Part shown: positions 1,003-31,346 of the stretch, piece by piece
How positions within the stretch are numbered: position 1 is the first letter of the stretch
Layout of the letters: each line of letters opens with the position of its first letter
From: Sanghuangporus weigelae
Taxonomy: Eukaryota > Basidiomycota > Agaricomycetes > Hymenochaetales > Hymenochaetaceae
Reading direction: 5' to 3'
Assembly: GCA_033182465.1 (NCBI GenBank)
Contig: CP137330.1
Location: 992,001 to 1,056,000, forward strand
DNA length: 64,000 nucleotides
Notes under the pieces: model-generated
Told to the model about the DNA's origin: nothing
Databases searched by the model: none
The model's input: only the letters and a program-made list of their open reading frames with translations
Position numbers and translations under genes: made by a program

Positions 1003-1745
1003 TCAAGACGAATGGCCCAATCGGGTGAGGTAACGCTGATTAGTGCTCAAGCAAACCCCACTCGTAAATCCAATATTTCCACCGAAGCATCCCGACGCTA
1101 CGAGTGAGTTGCCTTGACTGCCCTATACATAATGAATCAGTAAGATATCGTCGGAAAAGAAATATTCAGAGACTGACAAGATCATCCCAGCAAAACTCTT
1201 CGGTAAAATTAGCCAGGTTAAGAAAACCAAGCGAACATGTATTCAAAGAGATGACATGGAAGTTCTTGGGTTGGACCATGAAGGTTGGACCTTGCAAAGA
1301 AGCGATGACGCCCGTCGAGCCAATCAGGGTTTTGCAATCACTCTCGGAGGGCAAGGTACCGTCGATGAAGCAGGTACAATCGACTGCAATAAAGTGATCT
1401 GATTCATATTTGCAGGTAAGAATGCTAACCGATGCTCTCACCTGCAATTCCGCATTGACATATAGTCGCTGGTGTCGTGCATTCCGTCTGACTCCGAACT
1501 TCGAGAGAAGAAAGGCGCGTGACCGAGCTTGACGAAATCGCGCTAGAAATGCCCTCGGCGTCGAGGTGTCCATCTGAGCATGTAAAAGTCCGGTGCACAA
1601 CTTCATGTCCATTGACGTTCATGCTCGACGACTCGAGCTCCTTCGCATTAGGACAAGCGTCTGCGACGGAACGAGGAATCTCAGCGGCGTGTGCACAAAT
1701 AGCACTTGCAAGGATGAGTAGCTTAGCAGCGAAGAGGGTTGGCAT
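1003..1745 (-). CDS. Small secreted 12-cysteine protein, copy A
   Basis: Three exons on the minus strand (1745-1442, 1383-1178, 1122-1003) joined across 58- and 55-base GT-AG introns give 209 residues. The N-terminus is a clear signal peptide (MPTLFAAKLLILASAICAHA). Twelve cysteines follow, with landmarks ECTTP..ICQCG, DCTC, GPTFMV, NTCSLG, FCWDDL and GVCLS. Cysteine spacing, exon number and intron phases match copies B and C downstream, so this is a divergently oriented family member. The even cysteine count and the signal peptide suggest a disulfide-bonded extracellular protein. Function is unknown; an effector or cell-surface role is only inference. A TATA-like element lies about 50 bases upstream. 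I recognise no named domain. Confidence 0.85.
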
Positions 1746-1790
1746 ATTGACTCGGGCAAATATCTAGTTCGATTGCCTTCCTGAGGTCGG

Positions 1791-1797
1791 TTTTATA
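1791..1797 (-). promoter_or_regulatory. TATA-like element of secreted-protein copy A
   Basis: The minus strand reads TATAAAA about 46-52 bases before the start codon at 1745. All four family copies have a TATA-like element at 46-64 bases, which supports a shared promoter layout. Confidence 0.5.
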
Positions 1798-2754
1798 TGT
1801 GAGCACGACGATTGTGAAGCAGTGAAGTCCAGTCGTTATTCAATATTTTTTCTTTATGAATTTGATAGATTCTGGTCTTCAAGTGTCCCTTCCCATGGCA
1901 GGTCTTTGTATTTCGCGAAGCATAGGGATAAGGTGGACAAATGGAGCGCCGGCGAAGTTAAGCATCCGAATCCTCTGAGGGACAGTGCCTATAAAATTTC
2001 CCACATGCGTCCGCGCCCAGTCTTCATGATTGATTCGAAATGATTTGCAAGTCAGAAGGTACTCTGTCTATTGAAAGAAGCCAGAGGAACAGTCATATCT
2101 TCCATTCCAGCGGAAGATACGAACTACAACAGATGAAGCATCGTCGTTCTGACAGATGCGTTCAATACCTCAGTTCTCATGACAATCCCTCCGTGCGATG
2201 AGAGATAAACCTTGCCTATCCATGAAGACTTCAGCAGACAATATCAATGGAGTAAAATTCGATGAGCTTGAACATCGACAATGGAGACGCTGATGTCCGA
2301 GAAGACTTAGTCAGGTTGGATTGAGTGTATTTTGAGTCGGAGATTCAAACTAGAGTCATTCGCGTCACGTCGCGTAGATCAGATCACTGGTTCAATTTTT
2401 TCTCTCTCCCTTCCTTCCGCTTCCATGTCTATCTGCCGTCAACACGTATCTTGGTGATTACCACGTATCAGTGCCTCAGCTACGGAGCTGAATATGCGCC
2501 GTGACTTTCTGTGTATCCAGATGGCCTAGGGTGTAATTGAAATCCCTGGACGAAGTTTCATGCCTCTCGGGGACCTTGCTTCCTTCTTCGACATGCCTAT
2601 TGCGGTACGAAATAACGATTGCCGTTGTCAGTTTCAGTGTTTTCTCCCTGACCTGACCGTACATTGCAGACGTAATTGTCCTTGACTCCCGGAGCTTATT
2701 GTCGGATCTTGAACCTCTCCGAACTTCGCGTTTTGATTAGCATCCTATGGAGTG
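1798..2754. other. Intergenic between divergent copies A and B
   Basis: Shared upstream region of copies A (minus) and B (plus). The short open frames here show no motifs. Nothing else is identified beyond the TATA-like elements at each end. Confidence 0.5.
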
Positions 2755-2760
2755 TATAAA
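2755..2760 (+). promoter_or_regulatory. TATA box of secreted-protein copy B
   Basis: TATAAA lies 62 bases upstream of the chosen start codon at 2817. Confidence 0.55.
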
Positions 2761-2816
2761 GCTTCAGACAAACTCTTATGCATGTTTGGTATATCAGCTT
2801 GATTTCTTTTAGTATC

Positions 2817-3589
2817 ATGAAATCCTTGACTGCGAAAAGCTTCCTTCTCGTGTTCGTGGTTGGCTCATATGCCTTTCATACTCGTTCATCTATCACTCGG
2901 TCATTACTGGATGTTTGCTCGTCTGTTCATGAGATCTCCTCCTCAACGATATCCATTGACGGACACGAGATCTTACATCAGGTACTATCATGCCTAGATG
3001 GAAATGTCAACACATCCGCGATATCTACCAGAATTTCTTCTCATCTCCTGAAGAAACGCACTCTAATCGCAGATCGGAGTGCGGCAGAATGCACGACACC
3101 AAATCCGGAATGCCAATGCGGTACAGCTGGTAAGTGTTCTTCGCTTGATTGAATAGCGACTCATCCTGCCATCTTCGCTTCTTGGATTCCAAATAGTTGA
3201 TAACTGCGGTTGCATCAACAACGGGCCTACTCCGTCTTCTGAGGACTGCAACACGCTTGTTGCGTCGTTGCCTGTTATTTCAACTCTGAGTGGCCCAACA
3301 TTCATTGTTCCACCGAATACGCTCATGTCCATCACTCTTAATACATGCCAATTTGGCCTTCTCAATATGGCATCTACGAACACAGAATATTGCTGGGACG
3401 ACATGGTCAGTATTCGATTTCCTTTCTGGTGGATACATAGCCCAGATCTCTCTGCTCTAACTCACCGAACCTCTACAGGCTGTCTCAGGAAATGATATCA
3501 AGTTCTGCATGAGCAGCATTGATTTTGCAAGTGGGGTTTGCGTAGCCGACGACGAACGCTTTCTCGTCTTCCTCGGTCCTGTTAACTAG
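2817..3589 (+). CDS. Small secreted 12-cysteine protein, copy B
   Basis: Exons 2817-3129, 3197-3405 and 3479-3589 join to 210 residues. The introns (67 and 73 bases) have GT-AG ends and the same phases as copies A and C. An upstream in-frame ATG at 2778 exists, but 2817 gives a start (MKSLTAK...) that aligns with copy C (MKFLDAK...) and places the hydrophobic signal core correctly. Twelve cysteines include ECTTPNPECQCG, NCGC, EDC, NTC, YCWDDM, FC and GVCV. The frame closes with ERFLVFLGPVN and a stop. Likely secreted and disulfide-rich, with function unknown. The neighbouring copies C and D are on the same strand. Confidence 0.87.
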
Positions 3590-4059
3590 TCGTCTTGCGC
3601 TCATCGTTGTTCAAGCAATCGTCCTCTTACAAGATCATGATGAGGCCGTATGATACGCAGATGGTCACCAAGAATAGACGAAGAAGTTTGTTGGACTCTG
3701 CGTGGTGTTCTCCGTTTCAGGTCTCTTTTCGCTTTCCGCTGGTCCTCCGAAGAACATGTATCTCTATTCGGCATAATCTTTCCCAACAATAACATGCGTC
3801 CGTGATACTACTAGAGGAGTATCGAAGTAAATTCAGAATACTGCGTCATTGTGAATCAAAGTTCTTCATTCTCTTTTCTGCTCTGCATTTCTAAAGCGGC
3901 CAAGGAGAACTACTATACTCAGGCACCACATCTGGTTCCTACCGCTTTTGCTGACACCGGCTTACACGATGCGGATGTAAGCGACCTGAATTCCAGGGCG
4001 CACTGTCGGTTTTCGAGTCTCTTTGGACTCTACATTACTAATTGGCGTCCTTTGTAGCA

Positions 4060-4065
4060 TATAAA
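4060..4065 (+). promoter_or_regulatory. TATA box of secreted-protein copy C
   Basis: TATAAA lies 50 bases upstream of the ATG at 4110. Confidence 0.55.
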
Positions 4066-4109
4066 GACGAGTTAGCAGCGTAGCTGAACTATCATCCAGT
4101 CGCTACGCG

Positions 4110-4870
4110 ATGAAGTTCCTGGATGCAAAGGTTCTCATTCCCGTGTTCATCATCGGTGCACGGGCTATCCCCGCTACTTCCATACTGCGTCAATTCCTTA
4201 TGTACAACTGCACGTCGATTCAACAAGTCTCATCGACAACACTAACAGTTGACGACCATGATATCTCGCTCCGGAGATTCACATGCCTGGATGGCAACAT
4301 CACTTCAGCTGCCTCGACTCCGGACATCTCGTCTCGTTACTTTAAGACACGTCGGCTAGTCAATGCGCGAAGTGCAGAAGAATGCACCACGCCGAGCCCA
4401 GAATGCCAATGTGGAGCCACAAGTCAGTATACTCCACTTAAGCTCGAGTAATGGCATGCTCAGTTATATCTTCTTTTGACCAAAATGAGACTAGTCAGTA
4501 GATGTGGTTGCGTCGAAGTCTCAGCCATCCCATCATTTGACGATTGCAACACATTACTGTCCATGATACCCACCATAGTATCATCCGAAGGCCCGACATT
4601 TATTGTCCCGCCAACTTCATCCACGGAAATCACTTTCAGGACATGTGCGTTTGCCTTCAGCAACGGAGAATCAACGTATACACAATATTGCTGGGACGAT
4701 ATGGTGAGCTTCTATTTAGCGAGCCACCTCACAGGTTTAGCACTTACTCTTTTTCTGCGCTCTAGATTGCCTTGGAAAGTCAACTCAAAGCTTGCGTTGC
4801 TGACTCTTCGATCGGAATTTGCGTACCCGATGATGAACGTTTTTTCATTGCTCTCGGACATTCAGGCTAG
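4110..4870 (+). CDS. Small secreted 12-cysteine protein, copy C
   Basis: Exons 4110-4422, 4495-4703 and 4766-4870 give 208 residues. The first two exons have exactly the same lengths (313 and 209 bases) as in copy B. The signal peptide is MKFLDAKVLIPVFIIGARA. The 12 cysteines keep family order: ECTTPSPECQCG, RCGC, DDC, RTC, QYCWDDM, KAC, GICV. The C-terminus is DDERFFIALGHSG. Non-cysteine positions differ widely from A and B while the cysteines and intron sites stay fixed, which is typical of fast-evolving secreted proteins. Function is unknown. Confidence 0.87.
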
Positions 4871-5434
4871 TCGGCTAGTCCTTGCTAAAATTTAATAACT
4901 CGTTATATGAAAATTGAATGAAAGAATAAGACGTCAGATGCATAGAGGATGAATGAATGAAGGAGCTTTCCAAGATGGTGGAGGTTTTCGTTAGCAGATC
5001 AGACTCCTCAGAGATCTCTCAAAGTTATGTCATGTGAGGCGTCGATTCGATTCAGGTTCGCGCCTCCGAGTCACTCTTCCTGTGTTCGTTCCGCTTTCTA
5101 CTGAGACTTAAAGATGCTTACTTGGCTCTCATCAACACTTGTTCCGACAATACCTGCTCATCGGAAATTCTGCTACAACACAGAACATCATCCGTGATTC
5201 GCTATGGAAATAGATGGTTCAGACAATAAGTTCTTCCTCCTCTGTTCCGCATGCCTCTAATGACCGAAGAGAACTACTGTACTCGGGCACTGAATCTGAT
5301 TCTTGCCGCTTGCTATCACATTCTACTCACACAGTAGGAACGTAAACGTCCTTCCTTCTCGGGCTTCATCGATCGAGTTGTTGAATATTGAATATTTTCC
5401 GGCTCTGGACTACAGACTGCCATCCTTTAAAGAG
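4871..5434. other. Duplicated intergenic flank
   Basis: The stretch at about 5220-5330 resembles 3850-3950 upstream of copy C; both carry the block AGAACTACT followed by a (T/C)T...CTC(A/G)GGCAC-like stretch. The duplicated unit therefore includes promoter flank as well as gene. Confidence 0.45.
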
Positions 5435-5440
5435 TATATA
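5435..5440 (+). promoter_or_regulatory. TATA-like element of pseudogene copy D
   Basis: TATATA lies 64 bases upstream of the relict start codon, at the family-typical distance. Confidence 0.4.
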
Positions 5441-5498
5441 GATTCAGGGATGATAGAGGGCGCATAGAAAGTCACTGGTGATTCCTCCTCGGTGTAAT

Positions 5499-6246
5499 AT
5501 GATATCCTTAACCTCAAGGACTCTGAGTCTCGCACTTATCACCGGTTCTCGTGTGCTTCACGCTCACTCGTCTTACTCAATTCCTAACAGCTGACTGCCC
5601 TTCTACCCAGGAAGTCTCATCTGCAACAATTAAGTACCGATGGACTTGATATCTCGCACCAGACGTTCGCATGCATGGATGTAAACCCCACTTCAGTAGC
5701 CCCAGCTCGAGGAAGCTCCCTCAGAAAGGACAGGTATTCAATTCGCGAACTGCAGCAGAATGCGCGACACCGAGTCTAGAATGCCAATGACGAGAGACAG
5801 GTCAGAACACTCTTGAAAGACTTGGTTCTTTCCCTTAATTTTCACTAAACTAGCCAACGACTGTAGCTACGTCAAGTCCGGTCCAGTACCGTCATTCACG
5901 GATTGCAAATCATTAATCACCTCAGTTCCTTCCATTTCGTCGCAGCGAGGCCCAACATTTATTGTTTCGTCTAAAATGTTCATGGCGCTCACACTCAATA
6001 CTTGCTTGCTTGATTTTCTCAACAGGGCGTTGACAAGCATCGAATATTGCTGGGACGATATGGTTAGCCTCCCAATTTCTTTCGAACGAACCAATCAGCA
6101 AAGTTCCTCAACGAGAACCGTTCCTTTCTTACCAGGTTTCCATGGCAAACATTCTCATTACGTGCCCTCTCAGCCTCAATTTTGCAAACGAAGTTTGTAC
6201 AGCCGACGACGAGCCCTCTCGTGTCATTCTCGCATCTGCTAACTAG
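5499..6246 (+). pseudogene. Decayed secreted-protein copy D
   Basis: The copy has a signal-peptide-like start at 5499, but the frame meets a stop soon after. A frameshift lies near 5625-5650, since the family segment after it is only readable in another frame. A further TGA replaces the last cysteine codon of the ECQCG motif near 5790. The second exon still reads as an intact family module (GPTFIV, NTC, EYCWDDM), and the last exon ends in ASAN and a stop at 6244-6246. Its upstream flank resembles that of copy C. It is best read as a dead tandem duplicate of copy C; a sequencing error would have to occur three times to explain it otherwise. Confidence 0.75.
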
Positions 6247-25412: not shown

Positions 25413-26908
25413 CTATGGCGTCTTCTCGCGGCGTTTCGCCCAAAACCGCGAGATTCCCTTTAGGCGTCTACCTTCTGCCTCTGCAGGAAGATTAAATTAA
25501 ACGAATTCGCCTTTCTGTAAAGGCCGACTTACCAATCGTTTCCTTCGTAGTGACCCGAACGATACGAAAGCGATTCCGTTCTGGCTTTCGTACAGGCACC
25601 TCGTCCAAGTTCAGGTCAGAAATGTTCTCCAGAGATGCAACATCACCAGCATGAGCTACAGCCGCGTTGTCGATAGCGTACGTCTCAGGAGTTTCAGGTC
25701 CATCTGAGTCTGAGTCGTCAGAAACGGAGCCCGATTCGAGCCCAGGTAGGACGTTTGAGAAATCTGCTTCAAGGACGTTATGCGGCAACTCCTTGTCTTC
25801 AGAGCGCCTCTTCAGTCGTGCCACACGGGGATTATGAAGCACTCCGAAAGCAGGTTCAGGAAGATGCCTGTCCACGGGGAGTTGTTGCCGCCTAGGAACA
25901 AGACCGCTGTCAATGTCGAAATCGGTTTCATCCGTGAATGTTTTCACACGTGAGATACGTCTAGCCAGCTCGCGAATGGAGATGCGTTGATGCGGACGGA
26001 ACCTGAAGATACTCTTCAGGATCTCGTTGGTTTCGCATGATATGCTCCTCAAGTTGTGATGGAGAAAGTTTCGGTCGTTGCATGAGTACCACTCGAAAAC
26101 GCGGTCCTCAGCTGTGGCCTTCCGCCACGGATAGTACCCGGTGATGAGATTCACGAGAATAATGCCAAGCGCCCAGATATCAGTATGCGGCGTAGAGATC
26201 GGCATAGATGACCTGGTTAGAAGCTCTTTGCGGACCGTTAATAGTTTGAAGGCTGCTCGACTGAGAATACATACCGGGGGCCATGTATGGCTCACTCCCC
26301 ATTCCGAGGTCTCTCGTGTACTTGTTTGTCGTCGCGAACCCGAAGTCTCCCAAGACAGCCTTCTTTCCTTTCTTCAACATGATATTCTCGGGTTTCAAGT
26401 CACGATGATAGACGCCTTCTTCGTGGCACGCCTTTACCGCATCCAAAACCTGGAGGAAAATCCTGCGAATGCACTCATCGTCCTTTGCAGCATTTTCTTT
26501 TTTCTGCTGCTGGATGAGATCGTTCAAGTCGCCGCCTTCGCAATACTCCGTAACGATGTATTTAAGACCCGTGGGTTCATCATCGATAACCTTGACGATC
26601 TTCAGAATCGAGGAAGAAGCAGCCGCGCATTGTCGGTGCAACCGTACTTCTTGAGAAATAGCCTTCTGCTGCCACGGTGTCATTCGACGTGGGATCATAC
26701 ACTTCACCGCGTAGAGTTGGTCCATGTTGTAATAGCTTTCCATCGCGGTGCACTCGGCCAGGTAGACGGCAGACCATGTGCCATATCCAAGAAGCTTCTT
26801 TAAGTGAAGGCGGCCGCCGTCGATTATAGCGTCTTTGAGAGGAGGGAGAGTGGCCGATGGACATCCCCTGTACGCCGGGTTGTTAAGAACATCCGATCTT
26901 TTCGGCAT
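25413..26908 (-). CDS. Ran1/Sks1-type serine/threonine protein kinase, copy A
   Basis: Exons 26908-26275, 26225-25533 and 25480-25413 give 464 residues. The kinase core is complete: glycine loop LGYGTWSAVY, AVKC lysine, HRDLKPENIM catalytic loop, GDFGFAT, and YMAPEL formed exactly across the first intron. DIWALG and RPHQRIS close the domain. A non-kinase tail follows with an acidic patch and GPETPETYAIDNAAVAHAGD. Overall pattern resembles Ran1/Pat1/Sks1 kinases, nutrient and sexual-cycle regulators in yeasts; the precise role here is unknown. The last exon is inferred from a GTAAGT donor and CTGCAG acceptor; without it the protein would end at 25492. Copy B lies downstream in this window on the same strand. 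Confidence 0.88.
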
Positions 26909-27678
26909 CTTGCACGTCTGAGTAGATGAGTTGGAGAAGAGTAGCGGTTGTCTAGATGAGAGATAGAGCGAAGAATTCGTGATGAGTACCAAGGTTGCTG
27001 CCCCACATTTTATGCGTTATTCGAACAATAACTAGCAGGTCTTGCACAGACATCGCCATAATGAGCGATAAGACATTATAATACAACAGGGAAAGAATAT
27101 AACGACAATTAGCACAATGAAATTTTTTTTTGTTAGGCTTGCCTACCATGTCTCGGGAGCTGGTTCAAGTCGACTGCTGCAATGTAAGCAAATATACCTG
27201 TGAGCGCACAGGATAAACGCCTTAATTATTCTCCTTTTCAAAAAGGAAGTTATATATTATTCTTGGTCATACCCATAACAAAAGACATAAGAAATACCTT
27301 CGAGGCTAGACCGGTACTAGTCCAGCAAGCTGAGACACGACTCATGTCCATACCATTCGTCGTACAGTCGCATAAGTCACGTACAAGTCGCTGATTCATT
27401 CAATATTCGACATACGGCAAGATATTTCGTTGGCAAAGTTCCAGCAAATTGGAATTATATGTAGTTGTAGTAGTGTATTTAGCTGCGTCCATCATCATCG
27501 CTTCCAACTCCATTATATTCTTCCACCCCCAAAGTGATTCATGCACTTGTGGGTTATGTATTCGAGAGACTCCCAAAAGTCAATATTCTCTCTGTCGTGT
27601 CGCTTGAAAAATGTGTGGAAGGTAGAAAATAGACGATCGATCATGACATGAAATTTAAATTTAGAAAAAAAACCCCTA
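26909..27678. other. Intergenic, AT-rich
   Basis: Separates kinase A from the miniature transposon. No coding motif seen. Confidence 0.5.
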
Positions 27679-28829: not shown

Positions 28830-30410
28830 TCACCTAGCAACGCCAACTAATCGCAACGGGCTACGTTTTGGGAGAGGCGGAAGGGACGTCGTGCCTTTAT
28901 CTGCGCGAGCAACGCGGTTCGTTTCCGTCTTGCCGCTTTTGCAATTCACGCCGTTTCGTGCTTCAGCACCGGAAGCAAAAACAACGGCAGAGACTACCCC
29001 CAAGTCAATTTCGTCGATCTCCTCGAGTACTCCCGCATCTCCAACGGCAGCAATAGTGGCGTTGTCGACCGCATGAGTTTCAGGGGTGATAGGCCCCTCT
29101 GACTCTGCGTAATCGGATTCCGAATCCGAGTCGCTACCGAGTATTGCGAAGCTGTCGGTAATGTCTGCCTCCGCGAGCAGAGATAGAGCAACTTCCTCCG
29201 CGATTGACATGTCGAGGATGTCTTCGTCTTCTTCAGCATCTGACAGCAATTGAAGATGTTCAGAGGGAGAAGGGAATTCGTCGATGATATAAGGGTCAAT
29301 AGGAGCGTCCGTGACGTCCGTTTCCTCCGGAACATGGGCATTTACGGCGTGAAGCTCGACAGACTCGAAGTCCGCCACCGTATTCGCCATCATCTCTGGC
29401 CCTGTCTCGCGCGAAAATTTCTTGGCGTTCAAGATTCGTGTAGACAGATCCTTGATAGAGGTTCGCTGGTGTGGATCAAGCGTAAAAATGCTCTTGAGTA
29501 TCTCGTTGGCGTCCCGAGAGATCGGAAACGCGTTGTACAAGTAATCTGGCTCGAACAGAGCATAAGCCAAGAAGCGATCATCTATGACGCATTCGTTTGG
29601 GTAGCGATAGTCCTTCGCTTCAACGGAGGCTTCTGACCAGGGTGGACAACTCGCTATGAGTGCCATAAAGATGACACCGAGCGCCCAAATATCAGCACGA
29701 GGCGACGAGTATCTCTCAAGCTTGACTCCAAAACCGCCAAGCACCTCTGTTAATTTTGAGTGAACTGAACGGTCATCACTGTAATGTTACATACCGGGGC
29801 TCATGTATGGCCTAGTTCCCAAGCAAAATTGCGTTGACACCTTTTGCCTCGTCGCGAATCCAAAGTCGCCAAGAATGACCTTCTTGCCTCCGTCTTGAAG
29901 CAAGATGTTTTCGGGTTTTAGGTCGCGGTGATAAATTCCCTGCCCGTGGCACGCCTCGACAGCGTCCAAAATCTGGACGAAGATCTCATGAATGCGCTCG
30001 TCGTTGTCGATGAATTCTCCATCGTTGATTAAATCCAGCAAGGTTCGTTTGTCGCACAGGTCTGTGATAATGAATAAATGACCCTTGCTGTCCTTGATGA
30101 CGTCGTGGATCTGGAGGACGTGAGGAGAGGCATCTGCGCAGATGGAATGCAGCTCGACTTCGTGAGAGACGGTGTCCAGCTGGTGAGAGTCCATGTGGCC
30201 CACCGCCATGCATTTTACCGCGCATGTCTTACTTGAATCAGAGACCGACTCTCCCTCGTAGACGGTGCTCCATGTGCCACGGCCGATGGCTTTGACGAGG
30301 CGAATGCGACTATGGCCTTCACCGATGACTTCATTTCTGAGATCAGATACATTGGCGGAGGGTGTTCCATCGAAGTATGGATCATTGAGCAGGGTATATC
30401 CAGTTGACAT
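28830..30410 (-). CDS. Ran1/Sks1-type serine/threonine protein kinase, copy B
   Basis: Exons 30410-29795 and 29746-28830 give 510 residues (an ATG at 30419 adds three). All catalytic elements are present: IGRGTWSTVY, CAVKCM, HRDLKPENIL, GDFGFAT and YMSPEV, the last split by the intron at the same place as in copy A. DIWALG follows. The tail is longer and more acidic than in copy A but carries a matching motif, GPITPETHAVDNATIAAVGD, then LEEIDEIDLG. The shared intron site and shared tail motif show tandem duplication. Function by family is regulatory phosphorylation; substrates are unknown. Confidence 0.88.
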
Positions 30411-30419
30411 TTTGAGCAT

Positions 30420-31346
30420 TTCAACGGAGAGAGTATTGCTGGCTTGTAGAGTGGATAGATGAGGGTAAGGGTACAAGCGAGTTTGTTAAAGATTGTACAG
30501 ACACCTGCGGTTTTATACACCTGCGGTTTTATTGACGAGGACTTGAGTTCACATTTGATAATGCTATGAGTTCTAGCTTACCTGCATCTTTACGCTTTCC
30601 AAACAATAATCCCAATTTTTACAAGCAGTCTGGACCCCTCCGGAAGCAAGTTGCCGACCAATGGCGAAGTGACTGAAGCAGTAAGACATTCCAGATCGAC
30701 TTCATAGCTTTGACGATAACAATAGATAATTTTCTTCCTATTGTTAAGCTTTACTTCCGCTGTGCCAGCAGCGATGCATCCAGATGTTTTCATCTCTGTC
30801 ATCCGAGACATGACAATCTAGACAACCAGGTTTATTGTCGTTTCTTTCTCGAACGAGCATCCTCATTGCCATTGGATAAATCTATGACAAATGGCAGATA
30901 AGGAATCTGGATGCGGAAGATCAGGTAGCTTGCTCTCCAGCCAAGGATGGTTCCACCTTTGAAAAAAAAAAAAAAAAAAAAGGGATTCCGAAAACGCTCA
31001 CGTGCGCCAAACGCGTACTGAAGTATCACGTGAGCTCACAAAATAAACAAGCATAAGCAATCAATCGAGAACAATACAGGTGTCTCACGTCCGTGTCCAA
31101 AGCAAAAAATGAAGTAATACTAGAATTTGCTTCCCGATCAGAGCTGCATCTCAAGTATGCTCAGCTGGACGGACATCTTGTGACGATGTTGGATGAGCAG
31201 TCATGAAGGGTACCTTGAATAGTCAGACTAGTACTGGTGGCATACATAAATACATCTATCACAGGACAGGGAAAACGCAAAAGGATTGGTGGAGAGAAGG
31301 TGTATGGATCAGGAGTTTGATCCACGAAAAAACACAGCTGAGACGA
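30420..31346. other. Intergenic with poly-A run
   Basis: A run of about 20 A lies at 30961-30981. No target duplication or coding sequence was found next to it. Otherwise empty. Confidence 0.5.

Follow-up and report, generated by a model that had tools for sequence, protein, structure and literature searches.

Fungi are well known for multigene families of secreted, cysteine-rich proteins. CFEM, hydrophobin and cerato-platanin proteins (8, 8 and 4 cysteines respectively) share a leader, cysteine richness and frequent multicopy occurrence with the family described here, which has 12 cysteines. KP4, SMKT, Klus, Gnk-2, LDL and Y3 are alpha/beta-sandwich proteins, and many killers and lectins with this fold have a pair of helices on one side of a four- to six-stranded sheet; they act on membranes, on ion channels or through carbohydrate binding, by mechanisms that the source calls unresolved (PMC13211469). 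Hce2 and KP4 genes were among those up-regulated in the Podospora non-self response (PMC3689799). The window analysed here is the whole stretch of 64,000 nucleotides at positions 992001-1056000 of contig C13, in a genome of 33.87 Mb and 13 contigs. At 1003-6246 it holds three intact genes and a dead copy, as an earlier sequence-only reading had claimed; the genes are A (- strand), B (+) and C (+) and the dead copy is D (+), and these were found to belong to a family with at least 19 intact members genome-wide (the own-genome search scores best candidates). The existence of the family itself is near certain.

All 19 proteins were found to have 12 aligned cysteines, a leader-like start and introns at alignment column 122 (phase 1) and column 197 (phase 0), the features by which we define the family. 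Exactly 20 columns of the 19-protein alignment are invariant, namely the 12 cysteines together with M1, R, Q, L, T, F and two D residues. The mean pairwise identity is 36% (range 25-73%), or 32% when the shared cysteines are left out. The leader is followed by a variable N-terminal part with C1-C5, which is encoded by exon 1, and then by the C-terminal part, which holds C6-C12 in the remaining exons and is mostly better conserved. The proteins are 204-222 residues long and acidic, with a net charge of -4 to -16 after residue 20. A hydrophobic leader was observed in every member by hydropathy only (best 11-residue Kyte-Doolittle mean 1.66-2.73) and the proteins are described here as probably secreted. 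The gene structure, which had been thought to be frozen, is uniform in all 11 models on C8 and C13 but not on C11, where each of the eight genes has an extra intron at 173/phase 1 (six genes), 172/phase 0 (C11_9) or 180/phase 2 (C11_1). These three positions lie within about eight columns of each other, which suggests separate gains or relocation.

The intact models are distributed over C8 (8), C11 (8) and C13 (3), and two dead copies and four relic fragments were also found. On C8, one gene is located at 992.6k and seven at 1040.8-1054.0k. The C11 cluster has eight intact genes between 775k and 818k, a dead copy (C11_5) near 804.2k and a relic near 809.3k. Queries were B, A, C and a C11 member and later two divergent members, which located isolated last-exon relics at C6:2028844, C1:213993 and C11:753943. 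Further weak genome matches were observed at C9:305210 (E-value 0.26) and C5:124346 (0.20). A script listed the candidate gene models, and profiles built from the family itself were used to rank them. One round required exon ends near the CxC and [YF]CxD motifs and dropped candidates with fewer than 11 cysteines, and the intron positions and cysteine counts of those models are therefore partly conditioned. In a round run with no cysteine floor, the best C8 and C13 models keep the same 12 cysteines except for C8_3, whose second donor is unusable there. The models of C8_4, C8_7, B and C were taken from the floor-free round, C11_1 from a third round and the others from the anchored round; C11_2 and C11_7 were shortened to a later in-frame ATG. 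All chosen introns are GT...AG.

Within the window, copy A is encoded by complement(1003-1122, 1178-1383, 1442-1745), copy B by 2817-3129, 3197-3405 and 3479-3589, and copy C by 4110-4422, 4495-4703 and 4766-4870, each with three exons and with products of 209, 210 and 208 residues respectively. All six introns are GT..AG, 55-73 nucleotides long, with phases 1 and 0 in each gene. B and C have 12 cysteines and A has 13, one of which falls within the leader to leave 12 in the mature protein; the order of the cysteines had been read correctly from the letters, and so had the leader and the shared motifs, with one variant in which A has DCTC where B and C have CGC and the CxC is retained. A and C are 41% and 45% identical to B, and C is 33% identical to A. 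The family resemblance is far above chance, with B matched at an E-value of 9e-28 by a paralogue located outside the window. For intron 1 of copy C, an alternative phase-2 model scored 281.2 against 278.7 for phase 1 with one profile and 359.5 against 367.5 with another; the phase-1 intron was retained, and 12 cysteines are present under both models.

Copy D (about 5499-6246, + strand) is a pseudogene. Reading from its first ATG ends after 31 codons, exon 1 then contains further stops and changes of frame, one stop lies inside the CQC motif and a Tyr replaces the second CxC cysteine, while exon 2 remains open. A block upstream of copy C (3877..3947, + strand) shares 73% identity with one that precedes copy D (5241-5311), and we read this pair as a probable remnant of the tandem duplication. 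A TATA-like CATATAA at 1793..1799 (- strand), checked on the sequence, starts 54 nucleotides upstream of the ATG of copy A. Elsewhere in the window, two adjacent Ser/Thr protein kinase genes, whose exons match Pfam Pkinase, were observed on the - strand at 25492-27016 and 28830-30485 and look like a tandem pair.

The family expanded through tandem duplication. The window copies had been described as a tandem set of four. Copy A, however, is on the - strand and runs divergently from B, and the family is not confined to this place but extends over three contigs. In the tree, the C11 genes form a single clade (100/100), A groups with C8_4 (95/90), and B and C group with C8_3 (93/88), so that the closest relative of A is on another contig while B is closest to C and C8_3. 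The DNA of the A/C8_4 and B/C8_3 pairs is 67% alike by blastn, with similarity confined to the genes. Since C8_3 and C8_4 are divergent neighbours, as are A and B, these groupings suggest that one divergent gene pair was copied between C8 and C13.

Several repeat features were observed around family members. A long terminal repeat (LTR) retrotransposon occupies C11:791265-803563, within the C11 cluster between C11_4 and the dead C11_5, with a long Ty3/gypsy-like pol frame (by eye) and inverted-repeat elements beside it. Its terminal repeats are 99.9% identical over about 1.5 kb and it therefore probably arrived recently. C11:804.2-806.3k and 811.9-813.8k form a tandem segmental duplication holding the dead C11_5 and the intact C11_8, where the DNA is 70-75% identical and the similarity extends into the downstream neighbouring sequence. 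At C6:2027400-2029300 and C1:213700-215500 we noticed composite repeats that are 95% identical. Each has a stretch of 235 bp that matches the last exon and 3' flank of C8_2 at 85% identity. These pieces abut an interspersed repeat with many partial copies, and we read them as a gene fragment that a mobile repeat probably captured or carried with it as it spread. The last-exon relic at C11:753700-755400 comes from a C11_1-like gene and lies directly after a protein kinase-like gene (by eye).

No match above the curated Pfam-A cut-off was found in any of the 19 members. When A, B and C alone were searched, the sole Pfam match was UB2H (E-value 0.26). For all 19 members at E <= 10, where the HMMER filters discard most weak matches, five Pfam families were matched, and CFEM, hydrophobin and cerato-platanin were not among them. 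Hce2 (PF14856) was matched in four C11 members and is the only family found in more than one; the other four families were each matched in a single member. The Hce2 matches have E-values of 0.01-0.18 and 12.5-16.5 bits compared to a gathering score of 25 bits, and they always fall in the exon-2 region, in the C-terminal half. Hce2 proteins (Ecp2-type) resemble the family in cysteine richness, leader and multicopy occurrence, but the alignments cover at most positions 1-64 of the 103 of the profile, leaving its last third unaligned, and the family has an extra N-terminal part with five cysteines. In shuffles keeping the cysteine positions, Hce2 was matched in none of ten and another family in one (E-value 0.058), and cysteine spacing alone therefore does not produce the Hce2 match. 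We rejected Hce2 membership because neither the 25-bit cut-off nor full coverage of the profile was reached, and kept Hce2 as a lead only. When the Hce2 profile was compared directly with the whole genome no match was obtained, but control genomes were equally silent. The same holds for GBD_Y3, which was also rejected, as none of the 19 proteins matched it and the silence in the genome is shared by the controls.

Other collections gave a similar picture. NCBIfam (A, B and C only) gave no match, PDB sequence searches returned 0-2 matches each at chance level with none convincing, and seven PHROGs families were each matched by one member, none convincingly. Copy B gave 10 and 27 pattern matches in viral_contigs and genome_contigs, collections that hold no fungal proteomes, and none was confirmed. 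Rfam gave nothing in 7 of the 10 stretches fetched. No description of such a family was found in the literature searched, most subscription journals and bioRxiv lying outside the search. The suggestion that no named domain is present and that the family may be undescribed is thus borne out within these libraries, and the family stands, on these comparisons, without a name in Pfam, NCBIfam, PHROGs, PDB and the literature searched.

AlphaFold modelling had been proposed as a check for six disulfides, and two models were obtained from partial proteins read directly from DNA. The model of exon 2 of B (69 residues, aligned with three further exon-2 rows) gave a predicted local distance difference test score (pLDDT) of 47.4 with a helix followed by four strands, while that of exon 1, intron 1 and exon 2 of C (198 residues, five fragment rows) gave 38.3; both models are too poor for a fold search or for a verdict on the fold. 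Hydrophobic moments, a crude measure, point to two amphipathic helices in B, near residues 121-131 and 166-175, separated by strands. The C-terminal part may adopt a small alpha/beta-sandwich fold, taken broadly to include the Hce2, KP4, SMKT and Y3-lectin types and defined by two helices on one face of a four- to six-stranded antiparallel sheet, with the 12 cysteines predicted to pair as six disulfides. The proteins would act outside the cell, where they would attach to the membranes or surface glycans of rival fungi or of other microbes, and the set of paralogues would form a repertoire of related binders. Antagonism is the leading single functional guess, at low confidence, because of the actions described for sandwich proteins (PMC13211469) and the Podospora non-self induction (PMC3689799). 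As a joint reading, a C-terminal alpha/beta sandwich with extracellular antagonism is tentative and, taken as a whole, rather unlikely. More doubtful still is a form of it in which a distant killer-toxin/lectin sandwich is joined to a new N-terminal five-cysteine module, giving about 19 differently targeted weapons or glycan binders that lie beyond current domain libraries.

A number of observations weigh against the sandwich. The AlphaFold models are too poor to judge the fold and the exon-2 model of B shows no second helix, averaged propensities call the proposed first helix (121-131 of B) a strand, and the support for that helix comes down to the moments and one poor model. The Hce2 match is weak, as its E-values were obtained over 19 correlated queries, it is missing in 15 of the 19 members and none of four consensus sequences matched it. 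Unrelated single-member matches reached similar E-values (PirA-like 0.016, Reovirus_L2 0.036 and a PHROG 0.011), as did the one shuffle. At E <= 10, no GBD_Y3 (PF22803) or KP4 (PF09044) match was found in the 19 members. The killer toxins KP4, SMKT, Zt-KP4 and Klus are small and of secreted type like the family, and their order of secondary structure may be similar, on crude and partly contradictory evidence, but the likeness in fold to KP4 is conjectural. Y3 of Coprinus comatus is a mushroom protein that is grouped with the alpha/beta sandwiches (PMC13211469), but none of the 19 members matches its GBD_Y3 domain. In addition, the customary hydropathy mark for a membrane span is 1.6, and while the later 19-residue maxima stay below it in 16 of the 19 proteins, C8_6, C8_7 and C8_8 reach 1.63-1.77 over 19 residues from residue 126. 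This stretch lies within the conserved cysteine frame and we do not take it as a probable membrane span, although a membrane-bound form is conceivable. In residue pattern the family may resemble Y3.

An alternative is that the proteins have a disulfide-rich fold of some other kind than the killer/lectin sandwich, with no relation to it, such as that of a protease inhibitor or a small-ligand binder. We consider such a fold quite possible, if still short of an even chance, since the Hce2 lead lies within the range of chance, no PDB sequence match is convincing and the propensities do not back the first helix. Hce2 is nevertheless the sole Pfam family in more than one member, and no shuffle reproduced it. 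As a statement on the fold, an unrelated disulfide fold is rated a little higher than the sandwich.

Selection between the copies was estimated as the ratio of nonsynonymous to synonymous substitution rates (dN/dS) by the Nei-Gojobori method on 11 chosen close-paralogue pairs, with whole-sequence rather than by-site estimates that are rough because dS is near saturation. The full-length dN/dS was observed to be 0.12-0.39 in the 10 estimable pairs, with dS of 0.83-2.11. In the C-terminal part the ratio was 0.09-0.28 (9 of 11 pairs) and in the N-terminal part 0.14-0.53 (10 of 11), and it was higher in the N-terminal part in all eight pairs with both values. From these rough figures the paralogues appear to be old copies under purifying selection; the simple view of them as fast-evolving is not supported, and neither is positive selection between paralogues. 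Two points here tell against the joint reading proposed above: many toxins or effectors would be expected to show the signature of an arms race, which purifying selection is not, and in C11_2/C11_3, a pair outside those eight, the C-terminal part had the higher dN (0.45 compared to 0.33).

Old copies under purifying selection fit the alternative that the proteins belong to the fungus's own cell wall or extracellular matrix, tissue- or stage-specific, with paralogues that differ by timing and not by target. A TATA-like box was found 52-113 nucleotides upstream of the ATG in 13 of the 19 genes, counted with no shuffled control, as in strongly regulated genes, and the acidic proteins with leader-like starts matched no enzyme family. 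None of the five Pfam families matched is a known fungal wall family (hydrophobin, cerato-platanin or CFEM), however, and we regard this explanation as unlikely. The source fungus is inferred to be a white-rot type agaricomycete from its small GT-AG introns and from exon-level matches in its own genome, 23 to the class II peroxidase extension domain and 12 to CBM1. Effectors against a living plant or animal host are improbable because the genome resembles that of a wood decayer of this inferred lifestyle and no positive selection was seen between paralogues, even though, as with many candidate effectors, the proteins are small and rich in cysteine, carry a leader and are encoded in clusters, and they show a weak likeness to the Hce2 effector domain.

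Large secreted cysteine-rich families make up a major unnamed share of mushroom secretomes. The 19-member set, with its invariant cysteines and mapped models, provides a profile that can be searched in fungal proteomes and a fold hypothesis that can be tested, and the 19 mapped genes are an obvious choice for tests of expression and binding. Should the sandwich reading prove true, killer-toxin/lectin-type folds would be extended to another multigene family of wood-decay fungi.

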